From NCBI GenBank assembly GCA_016191815.1, contig JACPVI010000010.1, positions 1 to 64,000 of the forward strand: DNA of 64,000 bases, in the 5' to 3' direction. Of this stretch, positions 16,386 through 29,941 are shown one piece after another. A model generated the notes under the pieces. It was not told where the DNA came from, did not search any database, and was given only the letters and a program-made list of their open reading frames with translations. The stretch comes from Myxococcales bacterium. Lineage in GTDB: Bacteria > Myxococcota > Myxococcia > Myxococcales > Myxococcaceae. A program made the translations under genes and the position numbers. Each line of letters opens with the position of its first letter. Position 1 is the first letter of the stretch.

Positions 16386-17393
16386 TCAGTTCCGCGTCAC
16401 CGCCGGCAGGCCCACCTGCTTCTTCATCGCAAGCCTGTCGCGCACCGACCTCAAAAGCTCGCCGTACAGCCACCTGTCGTCGATGGAGACCGCCTTGAGC
16501 AACAGCTCCTCGGCCTTGGCGTCCTCTCCGCGGACGAGGTGCATCAGCGCCGCGTTGTACAGCGCCCCGTGCGCCTTCGGGTTGGACTGCGCCACCTTGA
16601 GCCAGGAGGCGAGCGCTTCGTCGTATCGCCCCGATTGCGCGAGGAGGACGCCCTCCTTGTACGGGTCGTCGTCGGCGAGGACCAAGCGCTCGGACACCTG
16701 GTGGGGCAGCAAGGGGTAGAGGTGCAGCGCCACCGCGTGCTCGATGGCCTGGCGCATCAGCGCCACGCGGTCTTCGGGAAGCCAAGCGGAGCTGTAGGTG
16801 GACGATTTCTGGTACCAGACCACCAGTCGGCCCGAGCCGGGGTGATTGGTGAGCCGCACGCCGTTCACCTTGGCGAAGGCCTCGGCGGTGATCGCCTCGG
16901 TGCGCACCGGCTGGCCGTCCTTGGCCCAGGTGGAGAAGAGCAGGGACACCCGCGCCACGTCCCGTGAAGTCTTGTCCACCGTCTCCACGTAGGTGCGCCA
17001 ATCGAGCACCTTCACCGCGGTGACCAGCGGCGTTTGGGCGCCGGCGGGCACTCCTGGGAGCGAGTCCAGCCGGTACTGGAGCGGCTCGTTGGGCGTGCGG
17101 CTGCGCACCCACTTCGGCTGGTAGCCGAGATCGGTGTAGTCGACGACCGCAAAACTCGCGTTCTCGGCTTGGAAGTAGCCTTTGGCCGCCTTGAGCACCA
17201 GCCCGGTCATGTTGGAGAAGTCGTTCGGCGCCCGCGCCATCACCTCGTCGTCGGCGTGGACCTGGAGAAAGCCGATTCCCGGGCTGGCCGAGTGAAGCTC
17301 GACGATGGCCGGCTGGTGGCGGCGCACGTCGATGGTGGTGGCGCAGCCCGAAAGCCAGGCGGCGAGCGCGGTGACGGTCAGGGTCCTTCTCAT
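16386..17393 (-). CDS. Lipoprotein with C-terminal TPR-like repeats
   Basis: 335 residues. Signal peptide with lipobox LSGC (Cys17). The centre (residues about 30-230) is a mixed alpha/beta region I do not recognise; the last 90 residues look like two TPR units (EGVLLAQSGRYDEALASWLKVAQSNPKAHGALYNAALMHLVRGEDAKAEELL). It lies 10 bases downstream of the anti-sigma-like gene and is probably cotranscribed with sigma pair A. A periplasmic or outer-membrane partner that feeds the regulator is a reasonable inference, not shown. Confidence 0.7.
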   Translation of the reverse strand: MRRTLTVTALAAWLSGCATTIDVRRHQPAIVELHSASPGIGFLQVHADDEVMARAPNDFSNMTGLVLKAAKGYFQAENASFAVVDYTDLGYQPKWVRSRTPNEPLQYRLDSLPGVPAGAQTPLVTAVKVLDWRTYVETVDKTSRDVARVSLLFSTWAKDGQPVRTEAITAEAFAKVNGVRLTNHPGSGRLVVWYQKSSTYSSAWLPEDRVALMRQAIEHAVALHLYPLLPHQVSERLVLADDDPYKEGVLLAQSGRYDEALASWLKVAQSNPKAHGALYNAALMHLVRGEDAKAEELLLKAVSIDDRWLYGELLRSVRDRLAMKKQVGLPAVTRN

Positions 17394-17403
17394 GGCTTCT
17401 CCT

Positions 17404-18117
17404 TCAACGCTTGTTCAACTCGGCTGCGCCGAGCTGGACGCCAGGCACGGCCTGCTCGAGGGGGGATCCACTCCTTAGCGCCTCGGTCGCCTCGCCCAGT
17501 CCGAAGGGGCGGTCCGACCACAGGCCCCACAGTTGCTCGCGGCCTTTCGTGGCGTCCAATTCGATGGCCGTGGGGAGCAGAGGCTGCGCGGGTTCGTACG
17601 CAGCCGCCTCGAGCACTCCGAATGGGTGATAGACGGTGACCTTGCCGGCGGAGTCCTTGCCGATCACCGCGGCGAAGCCCTTCCCCGGAGCGCGCAGCTC
17701 GAAGCGGACCGCATCTTTGGCGGAAAGCTCGACCCCCTTCGCCAGGCGCTCGCTCGATTCGCCGCGCCTGAGGTGCACAGTGAGGGTGACCCCTCCCTTG
17801 GTGATGAAGGAGGGCTCGTCCTCCGTGGGGAAGTCCAGGACGAGGCCGATCGCGAAGGCGCCGGCGGCGAGCGGCGCGAGGACGGCGGGCAGCGCCCACC
17901 AGCGCCGTCGCGCGGCGCGCTCGTACCGCGCCACCATCTGCCCGGGAGGGTGCTGGGTGAGAAAGGCCTGCGAGTCGGCGCGCAGCTCCTCGAGGCGCGC
18001 CCGGTCGGGCGGCGACCCGGCGAGGCCAGCCTCGAGTGTTGACTTGGCCTCGGCGGCCAGGTCGCCGGCGAGGTACCGCTCGAGCAGCGCGTCCTTGATG
18101 CGGCGGCCTTGGGTCAT
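17404..18117 (-). CDS. Membrane anti-sigma-like protein with DUF4384-like periplasmic domain (pair A)
   Basis: 237 residues; its ATG overlaps the sigma-factor stop (ATGA), the usual coupling of ECF sigma and anti-sigma. Residues 1-70 are a helical cytosolic domain without the HxxxCxxC zinc motif; about residues 73-92 form one membrane helix (WALPAVLAPLAAGAFAIGLV). The exported part (GVTLTVHLRRGESS...DAVRFELRAPGKGFAAVIGKDSAGKVTVYHPFG) resembles the DUF4384 fold found next to caspases and matches, position by position in its core, the exported domain of the anti-sigma gene at 23605. Likely senses an envelope state and holds the sigma factor. Family assignment by resemblance only. Confidence 0.7.
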   Translation of the reverse strand: MTQGRRIKDALLERYLAGDLAAEAKSTLEAGLAGSPPDRARLEELRADSQAFLTQHPPGQMVARYERAARRRWWALPAVLAPLAAGAFAIGLVLDFPTEDEPSFITKGGVTLTVHLRRGESSERLAKGVELSAKDAVRFELRAPGKGFAAVIGKDSAGKVTVYHPFGVLEAAAYEPAQPLLPTAIELDATKGREQLWGLWSDRPFGLGEATEALRSGSPLEQAVPGVQLGAAELNKR

Positions 18118-18659
18118 TGCAGCCCCAATGGCGTGAAGCGGGCGTAGCGCTTTCGGGCCCGGTCGGCGAAGTGGGCGAGGTGCTTTCCCACGGTCTTGCG
18201 GGAGAGGTCCAGCACCTGGCCGATCTCCTCGGTGGTGTGACCTTCGACGAAGTAGAGGAAGGCGGCGGTGAGCACCAAGGGATCCTCCCCGCGGGTGAGG
18301 AGCGCCAGGTCCTGCGCGGCGTCGACGCGCGAGGCCTCGCCCGGGTGGGCCTCCGCCGGCTCCTCCCTGGCGCCGTCGTCGGCCTCGTCGAGCTCGAGGC
18401 CGGCGAGGCGCCCCGACCATCGGCTCCTGCGGCGCAGCCGGTCGACCGACTGGTAGGTGGCGATCTGGTAGAGGACGGTGAACGGGGCGGCGCCACCGCG
18501 CAGCTTCGAGCGGGCCTTCATGTACGCGAGGAACGTCTCCTGGGTGACGTCCAGGGCCTCCTGGCCATCCGAGAGCAGCGAGACGGCCCGCCGGTGCACC
18601 GCCGGGGCGTAGCGACGGTAGAGGTCGGCGACCTCTCGGGAGTCGGCGTCTGCACTCAT
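18114..18659 (-). CDS. ECF RNA polymerase sigma factor (pair A)
   Basis: 181 residues from ATG 18659; another ATG at 18710 would add 17 residues. Region 2 is residues about 15-80 (LYRRYAPAVHRRAVSLLSDGQEALDVTQETFLAYM), ending in a DRLRRRSRW basic block; region 4 is about residues 120-175 with the HTH stretch TTEEIGQVLDLSRKTVGKHL. No long extra C-terminal domain. Encoded immediately before and overlapping its likely anti-sigma, so a stress-responsive sigma/anti-sigma switch is expected. Target promoters are unknown. Confidence 0.85.
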   Translation of the reverse strand: MSADADSREVADLYRRYAPAVHRRAVSLLSDGQEALDVTQETFLAYMKARSKLRGGAAPFTVLYQIATYQSVDRLRRRSRWSGRLAGLELDEADDGAREEPAEAHPGEASRVDAAQDLALLTRGEDPLVLTAAFLYFVEGHTTEEIGQVLDLSRKTVGKHLAHFADRARKRYARFTPLGLQ

Positions 18660-18815
18660 CGCGCGGGCGGTTGTATCAATCTGAAGGCCACCTGAGGCGA
18701 TCGTCATCATCGGCCTGGTGTGTCGCGCGAGGGGCCGGCGAGGGGAAACTTTTTCGTTTCAGGAGGGAGCCGCTGGTTTCCGGTCGGCGGCCCTTCCGCG
18801 GTAAGGTGGCGGCCT

Positions 18816-19640: not shown

Positions 19641-19973
19641 GTGGGTCCCCCGAAGTTCAGCCAGATCGCCAAGGATCAGATCGGCGACCCGTACGTGTTC
19701 GGCGCGAGCGGGCCGGACAAGTTCGATTGCTCCGGGCTCATCTACCATGCGCTCAAGAAGGCGGGCATCGACGCGCCGCGGCTTTCCGCTCGGGGCTACC
19801 AGCAGCGGTACGGCTCCAAGCTGGACCGGAACGAGCTCAAGCCAGGCGATCTGATTTTCCTGTGGTACCCGAGCGATCGAGGCATCCCGCGCGGGCAGGC
19901 CTCTCACGTCGAGATCTACCTCGGAAATGGCAAGCGGACCGTTTCGGGATTTCCGCGACATCGCGGGGGCTCA
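19641..19973 (+). pseudogene. NlpC/P60 cysteine peptidase, 3' end not resolvable (probably disrupted)
   Basis: From GTG 19641 the frame encodes GDPYVFGASGPDKFDCSGLIYHAL with the catalytic Cys in DCSGL, then LKPGDLIFLW and the catalytic His in ASHVEIYLGNGKR: the core of a cell-wall endopeptidase of the NlpC/P60 family. After GNGKR the family pattern stops at about 19,945, and this frame then runs for 2 kb antisense to the caspase gene with no stop, which is not credible as protein. The other two frames stop at 20,005 and 20,061. So the gene has lost its end or carries a frameshift; the end coordinate given is the stop of the convergent gene. No signal peptide is present. Confidence 0.55.
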
Positions 19974-21818
19974 CCGCACCGCCGCCACACTCGGCAGGTA
20001 CTTGAACGAAAGGACCGGCATCACCGCGAAGAAGCCATCGCCCACCACCGGGCGCGCATAGAGCAACGCCAGGCCCGCATCGAGCTGCCAGTCGGGCAAC
20101 AATCCCTGGAAGCCCGCGTCCAGGTAGAGCACGCGGTCGAACGTCCGGCGAGGGAAGGCGAGGCCGGCGATCACCACCTCGCCCTCCGGCGGTGGCAGCA
20201 ACCCCATCGCCGAGAGCGAGAGCTGCCCGCCCACCCCGAAAAACGGGCTCCACGGGCCGTCTTTGGGAACCAGCCGGAAGGAAGCGCCGAGTCCCGGAGT
20301 CACCAGCGAAAGGTGCATGGACGGCTGGAGCTTCTCCCACGGCACGCAGTCCAAGCTCACCGACAGCACCCCGTGGCCGTCGAGCAAGGACACGCCTCCG
20401 CCGAACCGCTGGTACCTCCGCGGGTGCCCTTGCCGCAGGTTCCGCTCGATGAGCGCCTTGTCATCCGCCTGGGCCGCCGGCCGCGGCGCCGCCCGGCGCG
20501 AGGCGAGCTCGGGATCCTCTTCCAGCAGCGGATCCGCCTGCAGCGCCGCCTGAAGGTGGCGCTCCTCCTGCGCGCGGTTTCCGGCCGCCGAGGCTTTCGA
20601 CGCCATCGCCAGGTAGGCCTGCGCCTTTCCCCGGTAGCCCTCCTGGTCCCGGAGGTCCTTCGCCAGCACCTCGTTGAACGTCTCCAGCGCGCGCTCGGGA
20701 TCGCCCCGCTTCAGCTCCTCGAAGCCCTGCCTCTTGAGCGCCACCAACTGGTCCTCTCCAAGGCTCGAGCCGCCGCCCTTCAACACGCCCTCGGACAAGG
20801 GGAGAGTGCGGAAGTCCAGCTTCGCCACTTCCACCTGGCCGCCCGAGGAGGCAGTCACTGCGGTCACTCGGTACTTCTCGCCGGCGAGGCACTTGAGCAC
20901 GTACGAGCCTGCGGGAACGAGAAGCTGCGAGCGCCTTGCCTTCTCCCCCGCCACCTCGGCGATGAGCCTCCGCTCGGCGATGTCCGTGAGGTAGCAGCGC
21001 TGCTCTCGGGGCGGAAACACCAGCGTCCCCAGCGGCCCTTGAAGCCGGGTGAGGAACACCTCCCCGCGCCCGTTCAGCTCGTAGCGGAAGGACGGCCGCT
21101 GAGCTCCCGCCGCGGTGGCCGCGGTGTCCAGCGTGGTGCGCGCCGAGGCGTAGCGATAGGCCTCTGCCAGACTGACCCGCCCGTCTCCGTCGTCGTCGGC
21201 GGCGCCGCGGAGCCCACTCACCAGATGGTGCGAGAACACCGAGCCCGCCAGCGCCCTCGCCTCCTGCGAGAGCTCGTCCGCGCCGGAGGAGGTCAAAAAC
21301 GCAGTCCCCCGGACCGCCAGCTCGTCCTGCACCTGCACCCGGAAGGAGGCGGTCGGCCGCCCGCCCTTCGCCGCGAGGATGGAGCCCGACTGGCAAGCGT
21401 CGAGCACGCCGACCTTCACCGTTCCGGGGAGATCTCTCACCCGCCGGTACAGCTCCTCGAGCGACAGGGGCGGCCCGCGCAGGTGCAGGTACCGGTCGTC
21501 CGCGTGCCCGGAGTAGTAGAAGACGAAGAGCGACTTGTCTCCGGCCGAGAGCCGTTTGCCCAGCTGCTCCAGATGGGCGCGAAGCTCGTCGGTCGCCGGA
21601 TCCTCCAGCACCACCACCTCCGCCGGCCGGAAGTCGCCCAGCTCGGTGAGGGCGGCCGCCAGCCGGTGCGCGTCGGCGTGGGCGTGCCGGAGCGGGCGAT
21701 CCATCGACCAGCCGAGGTTCGCGCCCACCAGGAGGGCGACTCGCTCCGTCGCGTCCGCAGCTGGGGAGGCCGTCGACAAGAGAAGGAGCGCCGCCACGGG
21801 TGCGAGCCGATCGGACAC
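19971..21818 (-). CDS. Secreted caspase-family peptidase with TPR-like and C-terminal beta-rich region
   Basis: 615 residues from GTG 21818, chosen because AAAGGGGCGG precedes it and a signal peptide starts there (APVAALLLLSTASPAADA). Residues about 25-230 are a caspase/metacaspase (C14) p20-like domain with H105 in YYSGHAD and C142 in DACQSG. An EF-hand-like DDDGDGRVSLAEA loop lies near residue 210. About residues 370-430 are TPR-like (FEELKRGDPERALETFNEVLAKD), and the last 150 residues alternate like an outer-membrane barrel or beta-sandwich. Divergent, about 195 bases from the lipoprotein at 22013. Paralogue of the caspase at 24382. Exported caspases of this sort are poorly characterised. 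Confidence 0.8.
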   Translation of the reverse strand: MSDRLAPVAALLLLSTASPAADATERVALLVGANLGWSMDRPLRHAHADAHRLAAALTELGDFRPAEVVVLEDPATDELRAHLEQLGKRLSAGDKSLFVFYYSGHADDRYLHLRGPPLSLEELYRRVRDLPGTVKVGVLDACQSGSILAAKGGRPTASFRVQVQDELAVRGTAFLTSSGADELSQEARALAGSVFSHHLVSGLRGAADDDGDGRVSLAEAYRYASARTTLDTAATAAGAQRPSFRYELNGRGEVFLTRLQGPLGTLVFPPREQRCYLTDIAERRLIAEVAGEKARRSQLLVPAGSYVLKCLAGEKYRVTAVTASSGGQVEVAKLDFRTLPLSEGVLKGGGSSLGEDQLVALKRQGFEELKRGDPERALETFNEVLAKDLRDQEGYRGKAQAYLAMASKASAAGNRAQEERHLQAALQADPLLEEDPELASRRAAPRPAAQADDKALIERNLRQGHPRRYQRFGGGVSLLDGHGVLSVSLDCVPWEKLQPSMHLSLVTPGLGASFRLVPKDGPWSPFFGVGGQLSLSAMGLLPPPEGEVVIAGLAFPRRTFDRVLYLDAGFQGLLPDWQLDAGLALLYARPVVGDGFFAVMPVLSFKYLPSVAAVR

Positions 21819-22012
21819 CCCGCCCTTTTGCCCATCATCTCCGCCGCACACAAGGCCATCGCCCACCCTTCCCCACACCGCCCGCAACCGGCCGGCTTGA
21901 CGCGGGTTTTTCCCTCGCGGGAGCCTTGCTTTCAGTTCGGCGCGGCGGCCGTGTCCATTGGGACGTAGGGCCCGCCGGGGGCCCGTTCCCCGAACCGACA
22001 CGAGGAGAAACC

Positions 22013-22996
22013 ATGAAGCGCTCGATGCTGATCGCCGCCGCAGTGCTGGTCGCCGCCTGCGGCAGGGAGCGCGCGGACGAGTTCCGCCGCGGCTTCCCGA
22101 AAGCCAACGAAGTGAATCTCGAGGTGCCCGCTCGCGCCGGCCAGGCGCTCTCGGGCGCCTCTCAGCGGCAGGACGCCCTCGAAGGCGACCGCGCCTCCTT
22201 CTACGTCTTCACCCGGGTGGTCACCGCCACCGTCAACTCCGGCACCGCCGCCATCCTTGGGCTGGTGAAGGCGATCACCGACAACCCGCCCACCTCCATC
22301 ACCGGCAACGTGGCCACCTGGGGGCCGCACACCGATCCCCTCTCGCCCAACACCTTCAAGTTCACGGTGATGAAGACCAAGGCCAACGACTACAGCTACA
22401 CGCTCGAGGCCAAGGGCAAGAACGATCCGAACACCGCCTACGTGGTCATCCTCTCCGGGACGCACGTGGTCGCCACCGACGCCAACGGGCAGCCGATGGA
22501 GAAGTTCGGCAGCGGCACCTTCCTCATCGACTGGAACGAGGCGCAGAAGCTCCCCGAGCACGACGCCAACGTCGGCTCCGCGGAGTTCGTCTATTCGCGG
22601 CCGGCGCCGCTCTCCCAGGTGGAGATCGACGTGGTCTTCTCCAAGGTGAAGGACCACGAGACCGGCCAGCTCGTCGACGCGCTCTACAAGTACGTCGCCA
22701 CCCCGGGCAGCGGCGGCTCCTTCGACTTCGGGATGGTGAAGAACCTCGACTCCGACCCCGCCAAGTCCGCGGTGGAGAGTGCCACCATTCACAGCCGCTG
22801 GCTGGAGAGCGGCGCCGGACGCTCCGACGTCCGGGCCAAGGGCGGCGACATCCCCGGGGTGGCCACGCTGAACGAGTGCTGGGACTCGGACTTCAACAGC
22901 CGCTACCTGGCCGCCTCCTTCGCCCCGAACGCCGGCTGGGGCAGCCAGAGCGCCTGCGCCTTCCCCAACGCCGACTATTCGAACCTTCCGCTCTAG
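22013..22996 (+). CDS. Lipoprotein of unknown family, first of two paralogues
   Basis: 327 residues; GAGGAGAAA lies just upstream of ATG 22013. Lipobox VAAC at residues 13-16. The mature protein is beta-rich and ends in a Cys pair within NECWDSDFNSRY and SQSACAFP. The middle (AAILGLVKAI...PPTS...WGPHTDPLSPNTFKFTVMK) aligns by eye with the lipoprotein at 25989, which ends in the same HECWDDAF type motif. No known domain. It heads the unit that continues with sigma/anti-sigma pair B and the second caspase, and is divergent from the first caspase. Confidence 0.7.
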   Translation: MKRSMLIAAAVLVAACGRERADEFRRGFPKANEVNLEVPARAGQALSGASQRQDALEGDRASFYVFTRVVTATVNSGTAAILGLVKAITDNPPTSITGNVATWGPHTDPLSPNTFKFTVMKTKANDYSYTLEAKGKNDPNTAYVVILSGTHVVATDANGQPMEKFGSGTFLIDWNEAQKLPEHDANVGSAEFVYSRPAPLSQVEIDVVFSKVKDHETGQLVDALYKYVATPGSGGSFDFGMVKNLDSDPAKSAVESATIHSRWLESGAGRSDVRAKGGDIPGVATLNECWDSDFNSRYLAASFAPNAGWGSQSACAFPNADYSNLPL

Positions 22997-23080
22997 CATG
23001 CTGGACTCGCGCCACAGCGCGTCGGACAGACGGGCCCACGGTCGGAGCCGGCCGTGGGCCTGGCCGTTGGAGGAGCCACG

Positions 23081-23608
23081 ATGACCGGGCCGGCGCTGGA
23101 GGTCATCCAGGGTGGCAAGCAGGACACCCGCGCGATGCTGCGGGAGCTGTACTCGAGGTACGGCGGCAGCGTGTACGGAAGGTGCCAGTACCTGCTCCGG
23201 GACCGCACCGCCGCCGAGGACGCGATGCAGGACGTGTTCGCCAAGGCGCTCACCCACTGGTCGGAGTTCCGCGCCGAGGCCTCCCCGCTGACGTGGCTCA
23301 TGAAGATCGCCACCCACCACTGCCTGAACCTGGTGCGCGCCGAGGGCGCCGGCTGGAAGGAGCGCTACGAGGCCCAGGAGCGCGCCCGCCCCGAGGGGCA
23401 CGGCGGGCCCCAAGTCTTGGAGACGCGCGAGTTGATCCGCAAGGTGCTCTCGCGCTTCGACTCGGAGACGCAAGCGGTGGTGTTGCACTACCACCTCGAC
23501 GAGATGACGCTGGAGGAGGTCGCCGCCCTGCTCGGCCGATCGATCCCGACCATCCGAAAGCGGCTGCAACAGTTCGCCCAGGCGAGCGGACAGGAGCTGA
23601 GGCCATGA
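23081..23608 (+). CDS. ECF RNA polymerase sigma factor (pair B)
   Basis: 175 residues from ATG 23081, after TTGGAGGAGCC. Region 2: LYSRYGGSVYGRCQYLLRDRTAAEDAMQDVFAKAL, with PLTWLMKIATHHCLNLVR completing it; region 4: MTLEEVAALLGRSIPTIRKRLQQF. Its stop overlaps the start of the anti-sigma gene (ATGA). Embedded between the lipoprotein and the caspase gene, it most likely controls this very island in response to an envelope signal; no matching promoter could be read. Confidence 0.88.
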   Translation: MTGPALEVIQGGKQDTRAMLRELYSRYGGSVYGRCQYLLRDRTAAEDAMQDVFAKALTHWSEFRAEASPLTWLMKIATHHCLNLVRAEGAGWKERYEAQERARPEGHGGPQVLETRELIRKVLSRFDSETQAVVLHYHLDEMTLEEVAALLGRSIPTIRKRLQQFAQASGQELRP

Positions 23609-24369
23609 ACGGACACGCGCACCTTGGAGAGCTCGGCCTTCGCAGGCTCTTCGCGGGCGAGCTGCCGCAGGAAGACGCCGACCAGGCCCGGTCCTGCACG
23701 CACTGCCGCTCGAGGCTCCGCGGCATCGAGGAGGAGCAGCGGAGGTTCGAGTCGGAGCTGCCGTTCGAGCGGTTCGCCGCCGGAGTGGAGCGGGCCGCGA
23801 GATCGCCACGGCCTGCCCCGAAGCCGCAGCGCAGGTGGCTCTACCCGTTCACCGCGATGGCCGCCTCTTGCCTGCTCGCGGTGGGTTCGCACGCGCTGAT
23901 CGATCGCCTGGGTCACAATGGGAATCGAATCAAAGGCAGCGGTGGCCCGGAGGTCGATCTCGTGGTCTCCGGAGCCAAGGGCGAGCCCCAGCGGCACGTC
24001 TCGGCGGCGGCGCCGGAAGCGCTCTCCAAGGGAGATCGGGTGCGGATCGGCTACCGGGCGGGAGATCTCCGGTACGTGGCAGCAGTCTCGGTGGATGAGC
24101 AGGGAGAGGTGACCGCGCTCTATCCGCAGGCGGGCCCCAGCCTGGAGGTGAGCAGTGCGGAGGGGATGCAGTATCTGCCACAGAGCATCGAGTTCACCGG
24201 CCACGGCGCCGAGCGGGTGATCGTCGTGCTCAGCCCGGAGCCATTGGAAGTCGAGGCCGTCACGCGCGCCGCCAAGGAGGCCTTCACCCGCGCCGGGCGG
24301 GTAGAAACCATGGACACCGTCGAGCTGCCTGGAACGGAGCAGTTTCACAGGGTGGTACTGAAGCCGTAG
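23605..24369 (+). CDS. Zinc-finger-type anti-sigma with DUF4384-like exported domain (pair B)
   Basis: 254 residues. Residues 1-50 include H6 and SCTHC, an HxnCxxC arrangement typical of zinc-binding anti-sigma domains. One membrane helix at about 78-97 (PFTAMAASCLLAVGSHALI). The exported part (VDLVVSGAKGEP...LSKGDRVRIGYRAGDLRYVAAVSVDEQGEVTALYPQAG...YLPQSIEF) shares its core pattern with the anti-sigma at 17404; DUF4384-like domains of this type are commonly associated with caspases. Overlaps sigma gene by four bases and is followed after 12 bases by the caspase gene. Likely the transmembrane sensor of the island. Confidence 0.75.
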   Translation: MNGHAHLGELGLRRLFAGELPQEDADQARSCTHCRSRLRGIEEEQRRFESELPFERFAAGVERAARSPRPAPKPQRRWLYPFTAMAASCLLAVGSHALIDRLGHNGNRIKGSGGPEVDLVVSGAKGEPQRHVSAAAPEALSKGDRVRIGYRAGDLRYVAAVSVDEQGEVTALYPQAGPSLEVSSAEGMQYLPQSIEFTGHGAERVIVVLSPEPLEVEAVTRAAKEAFTRAGRVETMDTVELPGTEQFHRVVLKP

Positions 24370-24381
24370 CTGCGAGGTCGG

Positions 24382-25977
24382 ATGCTCAGGGCATTGGGCA
24401 TGGTGGTGCTGTCGATGGCCGCGGCGCTCCCCGCGCCCGCGCAGGGTCCGCTGCGCCGACTCGCCGTCGTCGCCGGGAATGACCACGGCGGCGAAGGCAC
24501 CAGGCCTCTGCTCTACGCGAAGGATGACGCGAGGAAGATCCACGACGTCCTCGTGCGGCTGGGCGGCCTCGCCCCGGAGGACACCTCCCTGCTCCTCGAC
24601 GCCGGCTCCCAGGACCTGCTCACCGCCATCGGCGAGATGGAGCGCAAGGCCCGCGACGCCCGCTCCCGGGGCGAACGGACTGCCCTCTTCGTCTACTACT
24701 CCGGACACGCCAAGGACGGCGCCCTTCGCCTCGGCGATACCAAGCTTCCCTTCGAGTCCCTGAAGAATCGCCTCGCCCAAGCTCCCGCCGACATCCGCAT
24801 CGCGGTGTTCGACGCCTGCCGCTCCGGCACCATGACCCGCACCAAGGGCGCCCGCCGCGCCCCCGCCTTCGAGGTGGAGTCCGATGCCACCCGCGCCGCC
24901 CGCGGCCTCGTCATCCTCACCTCCAGCGCCGCCGACGAGGACTCGCAGGAGAGCGATCAGATCGGAGGGAGCTACTTCTCCCATCACCTGGCCAGCGGGC
25001 TGCTCGGCGACGCCGACCGGTCCGGCGACGGCCGGGTCAGCCTCTCCGAGGCCTATGCCTACGCCTACGACCGCACCGTGGCCGACACCGCCGAGAGCGC
25101 CGCCGGCGCCCAGCACCCCACCTTCAGCTTCGACCTCGCCGGCAACGGCGACGTGGTGCTCACCGATGTCGCCCAAAGGCGCGAGGGGGTGCTCTTCCCC
25201 GCCTCCGCCCCCGAGGGCCCTTACTTCCTCATCGACCAGAAGGGCTTCGTCGCCGCCGAAGTGGTCAAGGCCCAAGGCACCGAGCGGCGCATCGCCCTCG
25301 CGCCCGGGCTGTACAGAGTCAAACGGCGTCTGCAGAACCGGCTCCGCGTGGGGGAGGTCTTCGTCCGCGAAGGCCAGGTCGCCACCCTGAACGAGGCCGC
25401 GCTCCGCGACGCGCCCTTCTCCGACGATCCAGCAAAAGGCCCGGGCCGCGCCGCCCTCTACGCCCAGCACTACAGCGTCGGCGTCGCCGGGACCTACCAG
25501 TCGGTGTTCGACGCGCCCACCACCCGAGGAGGACATTTTCCCTCCGCTCCGCTCCTCGGCCTCGAGGTGCTCTCGCACAACTTCTTCGGCCGCGGCTTTG
25601 GCCTCGGCTTCGACCTGTTGCTCGGCGGCTCCGACGGCTCCCTCTCCACCGGCGCAATCGAGGACGTCCGGTACAAGTACGGGCAGGTCTCGCTCGGCGC
25701 GTCCATCGTCGCCGAGTGGCCGGAGGGCGCCATCGTCCCCTTCGTCGGCGCGCGCCTTGGCGCCAACCTCATGTCGCGGGAATTCCCCGGAACCGCGCTG
25801 CCCAAGCAGGGCTATTACACCCTCACCCCGGGAGCCATCGGCGGCCTGCGCCTCCGCCTCTCCCGAAAGTGGAGCCTCGCCGGCCGGGCACGCCTGCACT
25901 ACCTCCTCTACAACATCGACGAGACCAAGAACTTCGGCTACCTCGAGCTGGCCACGCTTTTGAGCTACGAGCTGTGA
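24382..25977 (+). CDS. Secreted caspase-family peptidase with C-terminal beta-barrel-like domain
   Basis: 531 residues. Signal peptide MLRALGMVVLSMAAALPAPAQ. Caspase-like domain at about residues 25-235 with H109 in VYYSGHAKDG and C146 in FDACRSGT, plus an EF-hand-like DRSGDGRVSLSEA loop near 215. A beta-rich linker follows, and from about residue 360 a region with alternating aromatic/hydrophobic strands (LGLEVLSHNFFGRGFGLGFD, GASIVAEW, LATLLSYEL at the C-terminus) looks like an outer-membrane barrel, including a terminal hydrophobic strand. Acts in the envelope. Activation by calcium or partner binding is inference. Followed 11 bases later by the second lipoprotein. Confidence 0.82.
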   Translation: MLRALGMVVLSMAAALPAPAQGPLRRLAVVAGNDHGGEGTRPLLYAKDDARKIHDVLVRLGGLAPEDTSLLLDAGSQDLLTAIGEMERKARDARSRGERTALFVYYSGHAKDGALRLGDTKLPFESLKNRLAQAPADIRIAVFDACRSGTMTRTKGARRAPAFEVESDATRAARGLVILTSSAADEDSQESDQIGGSYFSHHLASGLLGDADRSGDGRVSLSEAYAYAYDRTVADTAESAAGAQHPTFSFDLAGNGDVVLTDVAQRREGVLFPASAPEGPYFLIDQKGFVAAEVVKAQGTERRIALAPGLYRVKRRLQNRLRVGEVFVREGQVATLNEAALRDAPFSDDPAKGPGRAALYAQHYSVGVAGTYQSVFDAPTTRGGHFPSAPLLGLEVLSHNFFGRGFGLGFDLLLGGSDGSLSTGAIEDVRYKYGQVSLGASIVAEWPEGAIVPFVGARLGANLMSREFPGTALPKQGYYTLTPGAIGGLRLRLSRKWSLAGRARLHYLLYNIDETKNFGYLELATLLSYEL

Positions 25978-25988
25978 AGGGCGACACC

Positions 25989-26948
25989 ATGAGAGCCCAC
26001 CGACGACTTCTGCTCACCCCGCTCCTCGCCGCCCTCGGCTGCGGCGGCGGCTCCTGGTCCAACAAGGAGCTCGAATTCGTCAACGCCCTCCCCGCCAAGC
26101 AGGACCTCCAGGCCAAGCTCCCCTCGGACACCGCCCGGAGCGGGCTCGCCGCCGCCGGCAGCGGCATCGGCACCCGCAAGGACGCCCTCGGGATCGGCGA
26201 GCGCTCCAAGCTCTACGAAGACACCCGCAGCGGCTCCGACGGCTTCAACCAGGGCCTGGACGCCATCCTCGCGCTCGTCGAGGGCGTGCGGAGCCTGCCT
26301 CCTACCCACCGGGAGGGCGACTCGCGCCGCCTCTGGGGGCCGTTCCCCAACAAGGAGCACCCCGGCTTCGAGGCGAGGCTGGTGATGGACCGGGTGGACA
26401 AGACCTCGTTCGCGTACCGAGTCGAGTTCCGCAAGCAGGCCGGCGGCGAGTGGTTCGACGTGCTCACCGGAAACTTCCTCGCCAGCTCCGGCATCCGCAA
26501 GGGAGTCGGCGCGCTCAACCTCTCCGGCACCAAGGCGCGCGCGGGAGGGCTGTCGGACGAGGGCCTGCAGGGGCTCGACTTCCTCGACGTCACCTACAAC
26601 ACCGAGTCGACCTTGTACGTGGCGCTGAAGGTCCGCGCCGTCACCGGGGACACGCTGGACTACGAGTACCGCGAGCTCCCCGACGGAGGCGGCCGCATGC
26701 GCTTCCTCTTGGACAGGAACGTGACCGGCAGCGCCTTCACTCTGGAGCGGCTGAGCGTGGCGAGCGCGTGGCGGGCGGGCGGCGAGGGCCGCGGTGAGGT
26801 GCAGGTCAGGGCGGGAGACGGAGTGGGCGCCTTCCACCACGAGTGCTGGGACGACGCCTTCGCCACCACCTGGTTCCGCACCTACGACGGCGCCACTGCC
26901 GGCGCCGAGTCGACTGGCTGCAAGGCCTTGGCCGACCTGCTCCGCTGA
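25989..26948 (+). CDS. Lipoprotein of unknown family, second of two paralogues
   Basis: 319 residues; lipobox ALGC at residues 15-18 then GGG. Resembles the lipoprotein at 22013 across the whole mature part: a KDALG/ERSK region, LDAILALVEGVRSLPPTH, a WGPFPN segment and the C-terminal FHHECWDDAF with a second Cys near the end (STGCKAL). It starts 11 bases after the caspase stop, so a transcriptional unit from 22013 to 26948 is likely. The convergent pyroglutamyl-peptidase-like gene ends six bases away. Confidence 0.7.
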   Translation: MRAHRRLLLTPLLAALGCGGGSWSNKELEFVNALPAKQDLQAKLPSDTARSGLAAAGSGIGTRKDALGIGERSKLYEDTRSGSDGFNQGLDAILALVEGVRSLPPTHREGDSRRLWGPFPNKEHPGFEARLVMDRVDKTSFAYRVEFRKQAGGEWFDVLTGNFLASSGIRKGVGALNLSGTKARAGGLSDEGLQGLDFLDVTYNTESTLYVALKVRAVTGDTLDYEYRELPDGGGRMRFLLDRNVTGSAFTLERLSVASAWRAGGEGRGEVQVRAGDGVGAFHHECWDDAFATTWFRTYDGATAGAESTGCKALADLLR

Positions 26949-26954
26949 GCGAGG

Positions 26955-27902
26955 CTAGGATCTCGGCGCGTCCAGCTCCCGCAGCTTGAGGACCTGCCGG
27001 TCCACCACCGCCTGCGCCAAGACGCGCATCTCCTCCGCGGTCGTTCCAGGCCTGCCCGGGGAGTCGCCGTTGATGTGAACGAAGCCCGCCGTCACCCGCT
27101 CGTCGCGCCCGAAGGTCTCGGTGAGCCGGTAGTTGAGGTAGTTGCACAGATAGGCGCTGTCGTCGGGGAAGTACTCCTCGTCCCGCCCGGAGCGGCTGCG
27201 GTCGTCGGTTCCGACCGTCCGGCCGTTGGGGAGCGAGCCGGCCGAACCCGTCAGCGCCTTGTCGATCGCGTCCACCGGCAGGTCGGTCTCCATGCGCGCG
27301 CGCGGCGCCACCGTCCGGCTGATCGGCCCTTCCTCGATGGGCTGGTTCCTCCCGTCGGTCCCGCCGCCCTTCCAGTTCTGCGGCCGCTCCTCGACCTGGG
27401 CCTGCCCGCCCGACACCCCCATGGAGATGATCACGTCCGGGCGCGCCCTCTCCATGTCCCGGAGGAACGACTCCACCGCGCCGTGCGTCACCTCGAGCTT
27501 TCGGAACTCCACGTCGGCGTTCTTGAGCCCCAGCTCGGCGAGCTTCTTGGCCAGCACGCCGGAAGGGTTCGGCCGGCCCGCCGCCTCGTCGTAGGTGCCG
27601 CCGAAGTCGCCGTAGCCGGTGATCACCACCTTCAGCTTCCGTTCGCCCGGACGGAGCTCCACCGGTCCGGCCGAAGCGGGGGCCTCCAAGTCGCCCACCG
27701 CCGGAGGCAAGCCTCGCGCGGCCATTTCCCTCCGCGGCGCCTCGAACCCATCGTTCCTTGCGCGGTTGGGCGCCGCGCTCCGGACGGGTGTCCATCCCCT
27801 CGCCGGCCCTCGCGACTCGTCCTTCCGAGCGCTGGCCGGTCGCTCAGCCTTGCGAGATCGAACGCGGCCGGACTTCGAGCTGCGGGTGCGGTCTACGGGC
27901 AT
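26955..27902 (-). CDS. Pyroglutamyl-peptidase I-like (C15) cysteine peptidase
   Basis: 315 residues; GGAGG precedes ATG 27902. After an unusual basic, low-complexity N-terminus of about 85 residues, the C15 fold is visible: VVITGYGDFGG...NPSG near 93-114, PDVIISMGVSGG near 155-166, Glu in VEERPQNW at 171-172, catalytic C253 in AYLCNYLNYRL and H276 in GFVHIN. Family members remove N-terminal pyroglutamate and are normally about 200-220 residues; the insertion between the Glu and Cys motifs and the N-terminal extension are atypical. No signal peptide. Convergent with the caspase island. Confidence 0.72.
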   Translation of the reverse strand: MPVDRTRSSKSGRVRSRKAERPASARKDESRGPARGWTPVRSAAPNRARNDGFEAPRREMAARGLPPAVGDLEAPASAGPVELRPGERKLKVVITGYGDFGGTYDEAAGRPNPSGVLAKKLAELGLKNADVEFRKLEVTHGAVESFLRDMERARPDVIISMGVSGGQAQVEERPQNWKGGGTDGRNQPIEEGPISRTVAPRARMETDLPVDAIDKALTGSAGSLPNGRTVGTDDRSRSGRDEEYFPDDSAYLCNYLNYRLTETFGRDERVTAGFVHINGDSPGRPGTTAEEMRVLAQAVVDRQVLKLRELDAPRS

Positions 27903-28791: not shown

Positions 28792-29125
28792 GAATCCGCC
28801 GCCCGGCCGAGGCGGCCCCGTCAGGAAACTGACAGGTACCGACCAGATGTCAGACGGCCGCATGGGGTACTGCCTCAAACCAGGACGCGCTGTGTCTTGA
28901 CTTGAAACAGTTGCTTGTGTTCCAGAAAATGCCTGGTTTGCGGTGAGTTAGGTGATTTCTTGCTATGCGGCTTGACATCGCGCGCGGCATCTTGGCGAAG
29001 GCACGCTCCACTAGCCCAACCGTGGGGGTTGATGCAAGTGGTTGTTCTTTCTCGCCACCACGTTCGGCGCGGGAGTTGCTGAACGGCGGCGCGCTGTGCG
29101 GGCCTCGGACAAAGGGTGGCAAGCG
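28792..29125. other. AT-richer intergenic region with inverted repeats
   Basis: 334 bases without a credible gene. Between about 28,860 and 29,000 base composition is visibly more AT-rich than anywhere nearby. It contains nested inverted repeats at 28,820-28,853 (listed separately), two TTGAC(A/T) boxes (28,908 and 28,972 regions) and a weak promoter-like TTGCGG-17-TGCTAT at 28,938-28,966 facing the metalloprotease gene. I recognise no transposase or RNA family. Confidence 0.5.
28820..28853. promoter_or_regulatory. Nested inverted repeats (possible operator or small terminator)
   Basis: GTCAG-GAAA-CTGAC at 28820-28833 is a perfect five-base-pair hairpin with a GNRA-type loop. The same CTGACA half-site (28829-28834) is also repeated inverted as TGTCAG at 28848-28853 with a 13-base spacer. 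Lying just after the CBS gene it could stop transcription (no T-run follows) or act as a regulator site for the downstream metalloprotease. Confidence 0.4.
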
Positions 29126-29941
29126 ATGACCTCGGTTCGGACTCTCCTGATCTCCTCGTTGACGGTCCTGGTGGGGTGCGGCGTGGACAGCACCGCCTCC
29201 GTGGAGTCGAACCCGGAGCCCATCAGCTGGGAGCAATTCCTCTCGGTCGTCTACCTGGGAGAAGACGGCGTCTACGTCGCCAACGGCGACGAGGCGTTCG
29301 AGGACATCGGCAAGCTGCGCGCCTTCTACGACAACCACGTCGTCCGGCCAGAAGTGGGCTCATTGGGTCGGGACCTCGCCGTCTACCACCTGAACGGCTC
29401 GGACGTGAAGTGGAGCTCGAGCCAGGCGCTCAACCTCACCTATTGCGTCTCGACGAGCTTCGGCAGCAAGTACACCGAGGTGGTGAAGGCGATGACCGAC
29501 GCCACCGCCGCCTGGGAGGCCGCGGCGAGGGTCAACTTCATTCACGTCTCCAACCAGGACTCCAACTGCACCAATCGAAACAACAATGTGCTGTTCGACG
29601 TGAACCCGGTCAACGCCGGAGGCCGTTACCTCGCCCGCGCCTTCTTCCCCAACTCGAGCCGCCGCTCGCGGAACATCCTGATTGACTGGTCCTCGTTCCG
29701 CGTGTCGGCGCCGCTCACCTTGACCGGCATCCTCCGGCACGAGCTGGGGCACACGGTGGGCTTCCGCCACGAGCACACCCGCCCGGAGGCCGGCGCCTGC
29801 TTCGAGGACTGGGCCTGGCGGGCGCTCACCTCCTACGATTCCGGCTCGGTGATGCACTATCCCCAGTGCAACGGCACCGGCGACTGGTCGCTCACCCTCA
29901 CCACCAAGGACAAGGCCGGAGCGGGCGCGCTCTACCCGTAG
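29126..29941 (+). CDS. Astacin-like zinc metalloprotease, lipoprotein
   Basis: 271 residues from ATG 29126 (AAAGGGTGG upstream). Lipobox LVGC at residues 15-18. The metzincin zinc site HELGHTVGFRHEH spans residues 205-217, with His205, His209 and His215 as ligands, and the Met-turn SVMHYP at 241-246 matches astacins. No separate propeptide motif is evident, although the 85 residues before the catalytic core could serve. Surface-attached endopeptidase is the expected role. Followed by a strong hairpin. Confidence 0.87.
   Translation: MTSVRTLLISSLTVLVGCGVDSTASVESNPEPISWEQFLSVVYLGEDGVYVANGDEAFEDIGKLRAFYDNHVVRPEVGSLGRDLAVYHLNGSDVKWSSSQALNLTYCVSTSFGSKYTEVVKAMTDATAAWEAAARVNFIHVSNQDSNCTNRNNNVLFDVNPVNAGGRYLARAFFPNSSRRSRNILIDWSSFRVSAPLTLTGILRHELGHTVGFRHEHTRPEAGACFEDWAWRALTSYDSGSVMHYPQCNGTGDWSLTLTTKDKAGAGALYP

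Follow-up and report, generated by a model that had tools for sequence, protein, structure and literature searches.

A conserved myxobacterial operon of an ECF sigma factor, its anti-sigma factor and an exported caspase resembles a self-amplifying proteolytic alarm of the cell envelope

Introduction

Myxobacteria carry many caspases, and for most bacterial caspases we know of no role. Here we describe a locus of a Myxococcales bacterium (Myxococcaceae) in which an exported caspase, CaspB, is encoded in one operon with an extracytoplasmic function (ECF) sigma factor, an anti-sigma factor and two lipoproteins, LP1 and LP2. The operon lies in a stretch of 64,000 nucleotides (positions 1 to 64,000 of the forward strand of contig JACPVI010000010.1, assembly GCA_016191815.1), called the window below, and a second exported caspase, CaspA, is encoded next to it on the opposite strand. 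Four of the five metacaspases of Myxococcus xanthus DK 1622 lie in operons with sigma-70 genes, and operons joining sigma-70 and caspase-homologue genes are also reported from Anaeromyxobacter, Haliangium, Sorangium, Ralstonia and Fibrobacter (Asplund-Samuelsson et al. 2012, PMC3501461, of which an excerpted part is referred to throughout). A first-pass annotation, made from the letters of the window, knew of no described module of this kind, a statement that is too strong in view of these operons. Like them, the locus joins the genes of a caspase homologue and of a sigma-70 factor in one predicted operon; relative to the excerpted part of that paper, the anti-sigma factor, promoter, lipoproteins, barrel, cleavage motif, orthologous five-gene unit and mechanism are found only here. 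Our literature search, beyond whose reach lay the NAR 2021 ECF classification and its supplement, found the anti-sigma factor, lipoproteins, promoter, barrel and motif nowhere described.

Proteolytic control of sigma factors by relatives of caspases has a described precedent of a different make. In the Csx29/Csx30/CASP-sigma system (Craspase), a TPR-CHAT protease of the caspase superfamily cuts the inhibitor of an ECF-like sigma factor, and autoregulation by that sigma factor has been proposed (PMC10028731). Craspase is cytoplasmic, RNA-guided and CRISPR-encoded, whereas the present locus combines an exported C14 caspase with a membrane-spanning anti-sigma factor in an operon without CRISPR parts; no match to Cas7-11, Csx29 or Csx30 was found with Pfam, NCBIfam or PADLOC among its five genes and caspA, to which this search was confined, the rest of the genome not being searched. 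In the ECF54 group, proteases encoded nearby, CHAT domains included, are the proposed regulators of the sigma factor (PMC8999054), but the protease is of the CHAT type and there is no anti-sigma factor, unlike the C14 caspase and anti-sigma factor found here. The Microcystis orthocaspase MaOC1, which is associated with a toxin–antitoxin pair, disables an inhibitor protein from a neighbouring gene, with basic residues as the probable site (PMC7935541); its target is an antitoxin and no sigma factor is involved, whereas one is present here. Finally, the RpoE/RseA/DegS and SigW/RsiW systems share with our proposal a single-pass anti-sigma factor of the inner membrane, a cut on its outer side and an envelope signal, and differ from it in the protease, which here would be a caspase, rather than DegS or PrsW, encoded in the same operon and under the same sigma factor.

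Results

A five-gene operon conserved across genera

The conserved unit is LP1–ECF sigma–anti-sigma–CaspB–LP2 (22,013–26,948, plus strand), which occurs in dozens of Myxococcales genomes. LP1 (22,013–22,996) opens the operon and is followed after 84 bases by the sigma gene (23,081–23,608), which overlaps the anti-sigma gene (23,605–24,369) by 4 bases; caspB (24,382–25,977) and LP2 (25,989–26,948) follow after gaps of 12 and 11 bases, respectively. All six genes of the first-pass annotation (these five and caspA) lie where it had placed them, with the overlaps and gaps it gave.

A tblastn search with the window proteins against loci from 60 relatives finds the five genes in this order in 26 of 34 loci, and stop and start codons from the sigma gene to caspB overlap by 4 bases in most of the relatives' loci; the other loci are mostly contig ends or second copies (sigma–anti-sigma–caspase alone, with or without LP2). 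The same order is present in 50 of 70 loci from a contig collection containing named records and many metagenome-assembled genomes (MAGs), the remainder being mostly cut by contig ends, extra copies or more distant cassettes. Myxococcus, Corallococcus, Pyxidicoccus, Archangium, Hyalangium, Citreicoccus and Anaeromyxobacter are represented among the named records with this order. At E < 1e-60, a CaspB-type match, in some cases a paralogue, is found in 153 of 195 sampled genomes of the phylum, other classes included. The linkage is far beyond chance, since five of the six genes keep their order in many genomes. Thus, the gene-order comparison proposed in the first-pass annotation bears out an exported, barrel-tailed caspase under an ECF sigma/anti-sigma switch across genera; scattering of the six genes, which would have spoken against such a system, is seen for CaspA, which stands outside the conserved block, and not for the other five.

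Several loci depart from this arrangement. The CaspB orthologue is missing from several genomes (G034, G153, G154 and G156) of a single genus, code g23; a locus of G034 (L153, contig C15) retains the promoter, fragments of LP1 and of the sigma gene, the anti-sigma gene and the start of the caspase gene only, and G155 carries a partial copy with an internal TAG (G155:C1:6175589-6176629). This lineage thus seems to be losing the operon by decay. In locus L050 (G023:C54), about 840 bases separate the anti-sigma gene from the start of caspB, unlike in the other orthologous loci; an additional gene or an extended N-terminus might account for the distance. A record titled Comamonas sp. KCTC 72670 (L185, BNCN01000006.1) holds all five genes in an operon of Myxococcaceae type, and is probably a mislabelled or mixed assembly.

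CaspB is a caspase with a predicted outer-membrane barrel

Both caspases match PF00656 well above its cut-off of 21.4 bits (58.9 and 45.8 bits; E 7.6e-16 and 8.1e-12). The catalytic dyads (H105/C142 in CaspA and H109/C146 in CaspB) are those of the first-pass annotation, and the export that it had assigned to both proteins agrees with a signal-peptide-like N-terminal sequence in each. His109 (24,706–24,708) and Cys146 (24,817–24,819) of CaspB are invariant in 39 orthologues, as are Asp49 and Asp144, which by analogy would fit an acidic S1 pocket of a putative Arg/Lys-cutting protease.

The AlphaFold2 (AF2) model of CaspB (39 orthologues; mean pLDDT 83.6) comprises, after the signal peptide, the caspase domain, Ig/PEGA-like strands and a C-terminal eight-strand beta-barrel (residues 363–530; 25,468–25,971). 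The best Foldseek matches of the barrel are OmpA and NspA, and those of the remainder are yeast metacaspase, MALT1 and caspases 3, 6 and 7 (E ~1e-7 to 1e-6). With its signal peptide and predicted even-stranded C-terminal barrel, CaspB has the features of an outer-membrane beta-barrel protein and is probably anchored in the outer membrane. Since the two termini of an even-stranded barrel lie on the periplasmic side, the caspase domain should point into the periplasm. In 37 of 40 other caspases the chain ends in F, L, I or W, typical of the beta-signals of barrels.

A loop resembling an EF-hand (D212-RSGDGRVSLS-E223; 25,015–25,050) lies between two helices of the AF2 model (residues 198–210 and 221–236); Asp212, Asp216 and Glu223 are invariant in the 39 orthologues, and Gly217 nearly so. 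The two caspases score 67 and 62 bits against NCBIfam NF047832 (EACC1-associated caspase), below its cut-off of 140. A defence system was considered and set aside, PADLOC yielding only weak generic caspase matches.

Sigma factor, anti-sigma factor and lipoproteins

The sigma factor contains regions 2 and 4 only (Sigma70_r2 and Sigma70_r4_2; Pfam E-values of 1.5e-14 and 2.7e-7) and exceeds the cut-off of the NCBIfam sigma70-ECF superfamily (74.5 versus 42.9 bits). Its partner is a single-pass protein with a cytoplasmic CxxC domain, a transmembrane (TM) helix at about residues 79–98 and an exported DUF4384-like domain; the overlap with the sigma gene, the one TM helix and the exported domain are those of a membrane-spanning ECF anti-sigma factor. 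The zinc finger and the DUF4384-like domain of the first-pass annotation hold in part. The cysteine pair (Cys31 and Cys34) is there, but Gln27 occupies the usual histidine position of the ZAS-type motif (H-x3-C-x2-C), which is thus incomplete, and several anti-sigma paralogues have neither cysteine; the match to DUF4384 (25.6 bits) is slightly under the Pfam cut-off (27 bits).

LP1 and LP2 each carry a lipobox (LVAAC in LP1) and are paralogous, as first annotated, sharing 24% identity, each finding the genes of the other when used as query. Neither matches a Pfam family. Conserved C-terminal cysteine and E-C-W motifs are common to them, and genes of the family are also found elsewhere (G000:C72 and C3). 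The AF2 model of LP1 (pLDDT 89.8) consists of a helix and about 13 strands in a large antiparallel sheet. Foldseek finds no convincing relative of this fold in the PDB (best E 0.17), the LP1 profile has no match among PDB sequences, and VIA-align returns mostly porin-like sheets (Z < 9, rmsd ~8), from which we claim neither a relative nor a new fold.

A near-unique promoter

Upstream of LP1 lies an ECF-type promoter, TTTCAGTT-N13-GTGTCC (21,930–21,956, plus strand). An alignment of this site, TTTC(T/C/A)GTT-N13/14-GTGTCC, covers 26 loci, the window among them; a few instances are degenerate, and the distance to the start codon used is 28–87 bases. An exact-pattern search of the bacterium's own genome and 60 relatives yields 28 sites, 21 of them directly upstream of genes of the module, against 2 matches to the reversed pattern. 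The own genome has a single exact match, and two genomes that hold a second operon copy show two sites each. Given the one site in the own genome and the position of most of the relatives' sites directly ahead of the operon, the operon emerges as the sole target detected; no other convincing site pointing to a wider regulon was seen in this search. Seven of the 28 sites, all in relatives, lie elsewhere than ahead of genes of the module, versus 2 in the reversed control, and a few extra targets of the sigma factor are therefore possible, as are weaker sites. Read from these sites, positive autoregulation with a very small regulon would be the simplest arrangement.

A Lys/Arg-Gly motif shared by caspases and anti-sigma factors

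Among 28 anti-sigma factors from divergent cassettes (~22–29% identity), the sole invariant columns are Lys110 and Gly111. They belong to a juxtamembrane motif (R108-I-K110-G111; 23,926–23,937) in the exported part, just outside the membrane, where they end a linker of very different lengths, and form a candidate site of cleavage by the caspase. A matching motif in CaspB (R153-T-K155-G156; 24,838–24,849) is a candidate self-processing site: Arg153, Lys155 and Gly156 are invariant in the 39 orthologues, and the AF2 model predicts the surrounding loop (residues 148–173) to be disordered (pLDDT < 50). K-G or R-G occurs about nine residues past the catalytic cysteine in 132 of 138 caspases. The loop corresponds to the stretch between p20 and p10 in which caspases undergo processing, although type I metacaspases are stated to lack a cut at this place (PMC5756287); orthocaspases and metacaspases cleave after Arg or Lys (PMC6426788, PMC3501461).

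Compared across 76 cassettes, the letters of the motif agree between a caspase and its own anti-sigma factor (Fisher 5e-14 at P3 and 3e-8 at P1, K or R), a comparison from which rows without K/R-G had been excluded beforehand, which favours agreement, and in which the anti-sigma motif of six rows (including L304, L305, L307 and L313) was read by eye. An R-G caspase is paired with an R-G anti-sigma factor in L302, L303, L305, L307 and L313. Loci L301–L308 and L313 form a separate clade of cassettes with R-G in place of K-G in the caspase loop and in most of the anti-sigma factors; some of their caspases are encoded on the opposite strand.

Two neighbouring cassettes, and others in the phylum

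The window contains two neighbouring ECF sigma/anti-sigma/caspase cassettes. CaspA (21,818–19,971, minus strand; GTG start; AAKGG in its loop) lies beside the five-gene operon in no other locus examined. Its orthologues instead adjoin a second pair, sigma2 and anti-sigma2 (L144–L148 and L150), and L144 and L146 have the order caspA–sigma2–anti-sigma2–TPR lipoprotein. The minus strand of the window from 21,818 to 16,386 repeats these genes in this order: caspA is followed by sigma2 (18,114–18,710; Pfam and NCBIfam), anti-sigma2 (17,404–18,117; a TM helix and an ITKGG motif) and, as final gene, a lipoprotein with TPR matches (16,386–17,393), with an NlpC/P60 frame interposed on the other strand. 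It is from the CaspA orthologues and this repeated order that we recognize two cassettes. The first-pass annotation had two caspases bracketing one switch, a picture that gives way to two neighbouring switches. Inspection by eye found no conserved promoter for the second cassette.

The arrangement recurs widely. Eight caspase loci are present in the own genome, several others of which have sigma and anti-sigma genes ahead of the caspase (L075, L077 and L078; weaker in L079 and L313). A sample of 40 further caspases from relatives includes 29 with a same-strand ECF gene that ends 676–943 bases before the caspase domain, a distance of about one anti-sigma gene, and 4 more with the anti-sigma gene alone; chance would place an ECF gene there in about 1% of cases if a genome of 9 Mb held 100 ECF genes. 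In turn, of the 47 full-length homologues of the anti-sigma factor in 11 genomes (the second cassette of the window counted), 42 adjoin a caspase. Cassettes without LP1 and LP2 are found at L072, L074, L075 and L077.

Related barrel-tailed caspases without sigma and anti-sigma genes occur at L235, L239, L243 and L253; in two of these loci, L235 and L253, the caspase is preceded by a TonB-receptor-like frame, suggesting another recurring context. A MAG titled Spirochaetes (L220, CAIJMU010000118.1) contains a sigma–anti-sigma–caspase cassette, which points either to an occurrence outside Myxococcota or to a mixed bin.

Neighbouring genes

The NlpC/P60 frame that separates caspA from sigma2 (19,641–19,990, plus strand) matches positions 1–76 of the 105 of the domain profile and continues antisense into caspA, so that a truncation or a frameshift is possible. 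Convergent on LP2, a frame at 26,955–27,902 (minus strand) resembles pyroglutamyl peptidase (K-V-V-I-T-G-Y-G-D-F motif, read by eye), and further downstream (29,042–29,941, plus strand) an exported zinc-metalloprotease-like lipoprotein carries the motif HELGHTVGFRHEH.

Discussion

The operon has the look of an envelope alarm that works by proteolysis and amplifies itself; the inter-cell system that the first-pass annotation had inferred as an alternative is conceivable. We tentatively prefer an autoregulated operon whose caspase, or a mislocalised form of it, cuts its own anti-sigma factor at Lys-Gly and thereby amplifies the operon, because a caspase acting as protease of its own anti-sigma factor best accounts for both the linkage and the motif. 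In the resting state, the anti-sigma factor, with its single membrane pass, would keep the sigma factor at the inner membrane, while CaspB would be exported, its barrel in the outer membrane and its caspase domain toward the periplasm. Disturbance of the envelope, or failure of barrel insertion that leaves the caspase free in the periplasm, would activate CaspB, with or without Ca2+ at the EF-hand-like loop. Active CaspB would trim its own RTKG loop and cut the anti-sigma factor C-terminal to Lys110, within the corresponding RIKG sequence just outside the membrane; further proteolysis would then free the sigma factor, which would transcribe from the LP1 promoter, its one detected promoter, and so produce more caspase and the two lipoproteins, a self-contained alarm with positive feedback.

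Several observations weigh against this mechanism. The caspase tree has 8 changes at P3 and 1 at P1 of the caspase, and a paired test has no power; with so few independent changes the agreement of motif letters is inseparable from shared descent, and we rejected covariation as proof of cleavage. Lys-Gly is kept in 4 of 5 anti-sigma relatives without a neighbouring caspase (L295–L298, and not L300), so that it may be structural rather than specific to partners of caspases. The caspases of L310–L312 have K-E rather than K-G, and their own anti-sigma factors still have K-G. The EF-hand-like loop, by a strict pattern, is found in 94 of 138 caspases and is missing in 44, and was dropped as a general trait of these proteins. 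There is also the question of reach: the site lies about 12 residues outside the inner membrane, hard to access for a caspase domain held near a barrel in the outer membrane, which is why the mechanism allows for a mislocalised form. An unassembled caspase as the active species is speculation; if it were so, the switch would sense outer-membrane assembly, as DegS/sigma-E does.

The chief rival, a quite possible one, makes the caspase an output only: the sigma factor would be freed by an ordinary cascade of site-1 and site-2 proteases, or the lipoproteins or the DUF4384 domain would signal its release through a change of conformation, and the caspase would act on other proteins of the envelope, of prey or of the cell itself, in remodelling, autolysis or developmental death. 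A caspase gene downstream of the sigma gene in a regulated operon suits this reading, as do the caspase-less anti-sigma relatives just mentioned, and it is established that conventional ECF anti-sigma factors are cut by proteases of the DegS, PrsW or RseP type. Autolysis has been suggested for the metacaspases of M. xanthus (PMC3501461). What an output-only caspase leaves unexplained by itself is that 42 of the 47 anti-sigma homologues stand beside a caspase and that the two proteins share the K/R-G motif.

Improbable, in our judgement, is a scheme in which LP1 and LP2 are sensors or substrates that bind and inhibit the periplasmic caspase, damage that removes them unleashing it and control of the anti-sigma factor being secondary. 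In almost every complete orthologous locus the two lipoprotein genes do stand on either side of the cassette, and their cysteine and E-C-W motifs are conserved; against this, the four cassettes without LP1 and LP2 and the LP-family genes at other loci count. A single module of both caspases with one sigma pair is strongly disfavoured and very improbable, for although CaspA and LP1 start back to back, less than 200 bases apart, CaspA is beside the operon in the window only and its orthologues go with sigma2/anti-sigma2, whose pair in the window lies at 18,710–17,404.

A wider version of the self-cutting mechanism, which we regard as unlikely if taken whole, would have myxobacteria run several parallel, self-contained switches, each with a barrel-leashed caspase as site-1 protease of its own anti-sigma factor, the cut falling at the K/R-G motif that also serves the caspase in its self-processing. 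With the barrel as leash, failure of outer-membrane assembly, or membrane damage, would itself turn the switch on, giving a caspase-based counterpart of DegS/sigma-E with positive feedback. If caspases are indeed regulatory proteases in ECF switches, they would gain a substrate and a purpose, directly testable by one motif, one promoter and one operon. Caspase proteolysis would be tied to envelope sensing rather than to cell death alone, and a second, unrelated caspase-family route to sigma-factor control would stand beside the CRISPR-linked one.

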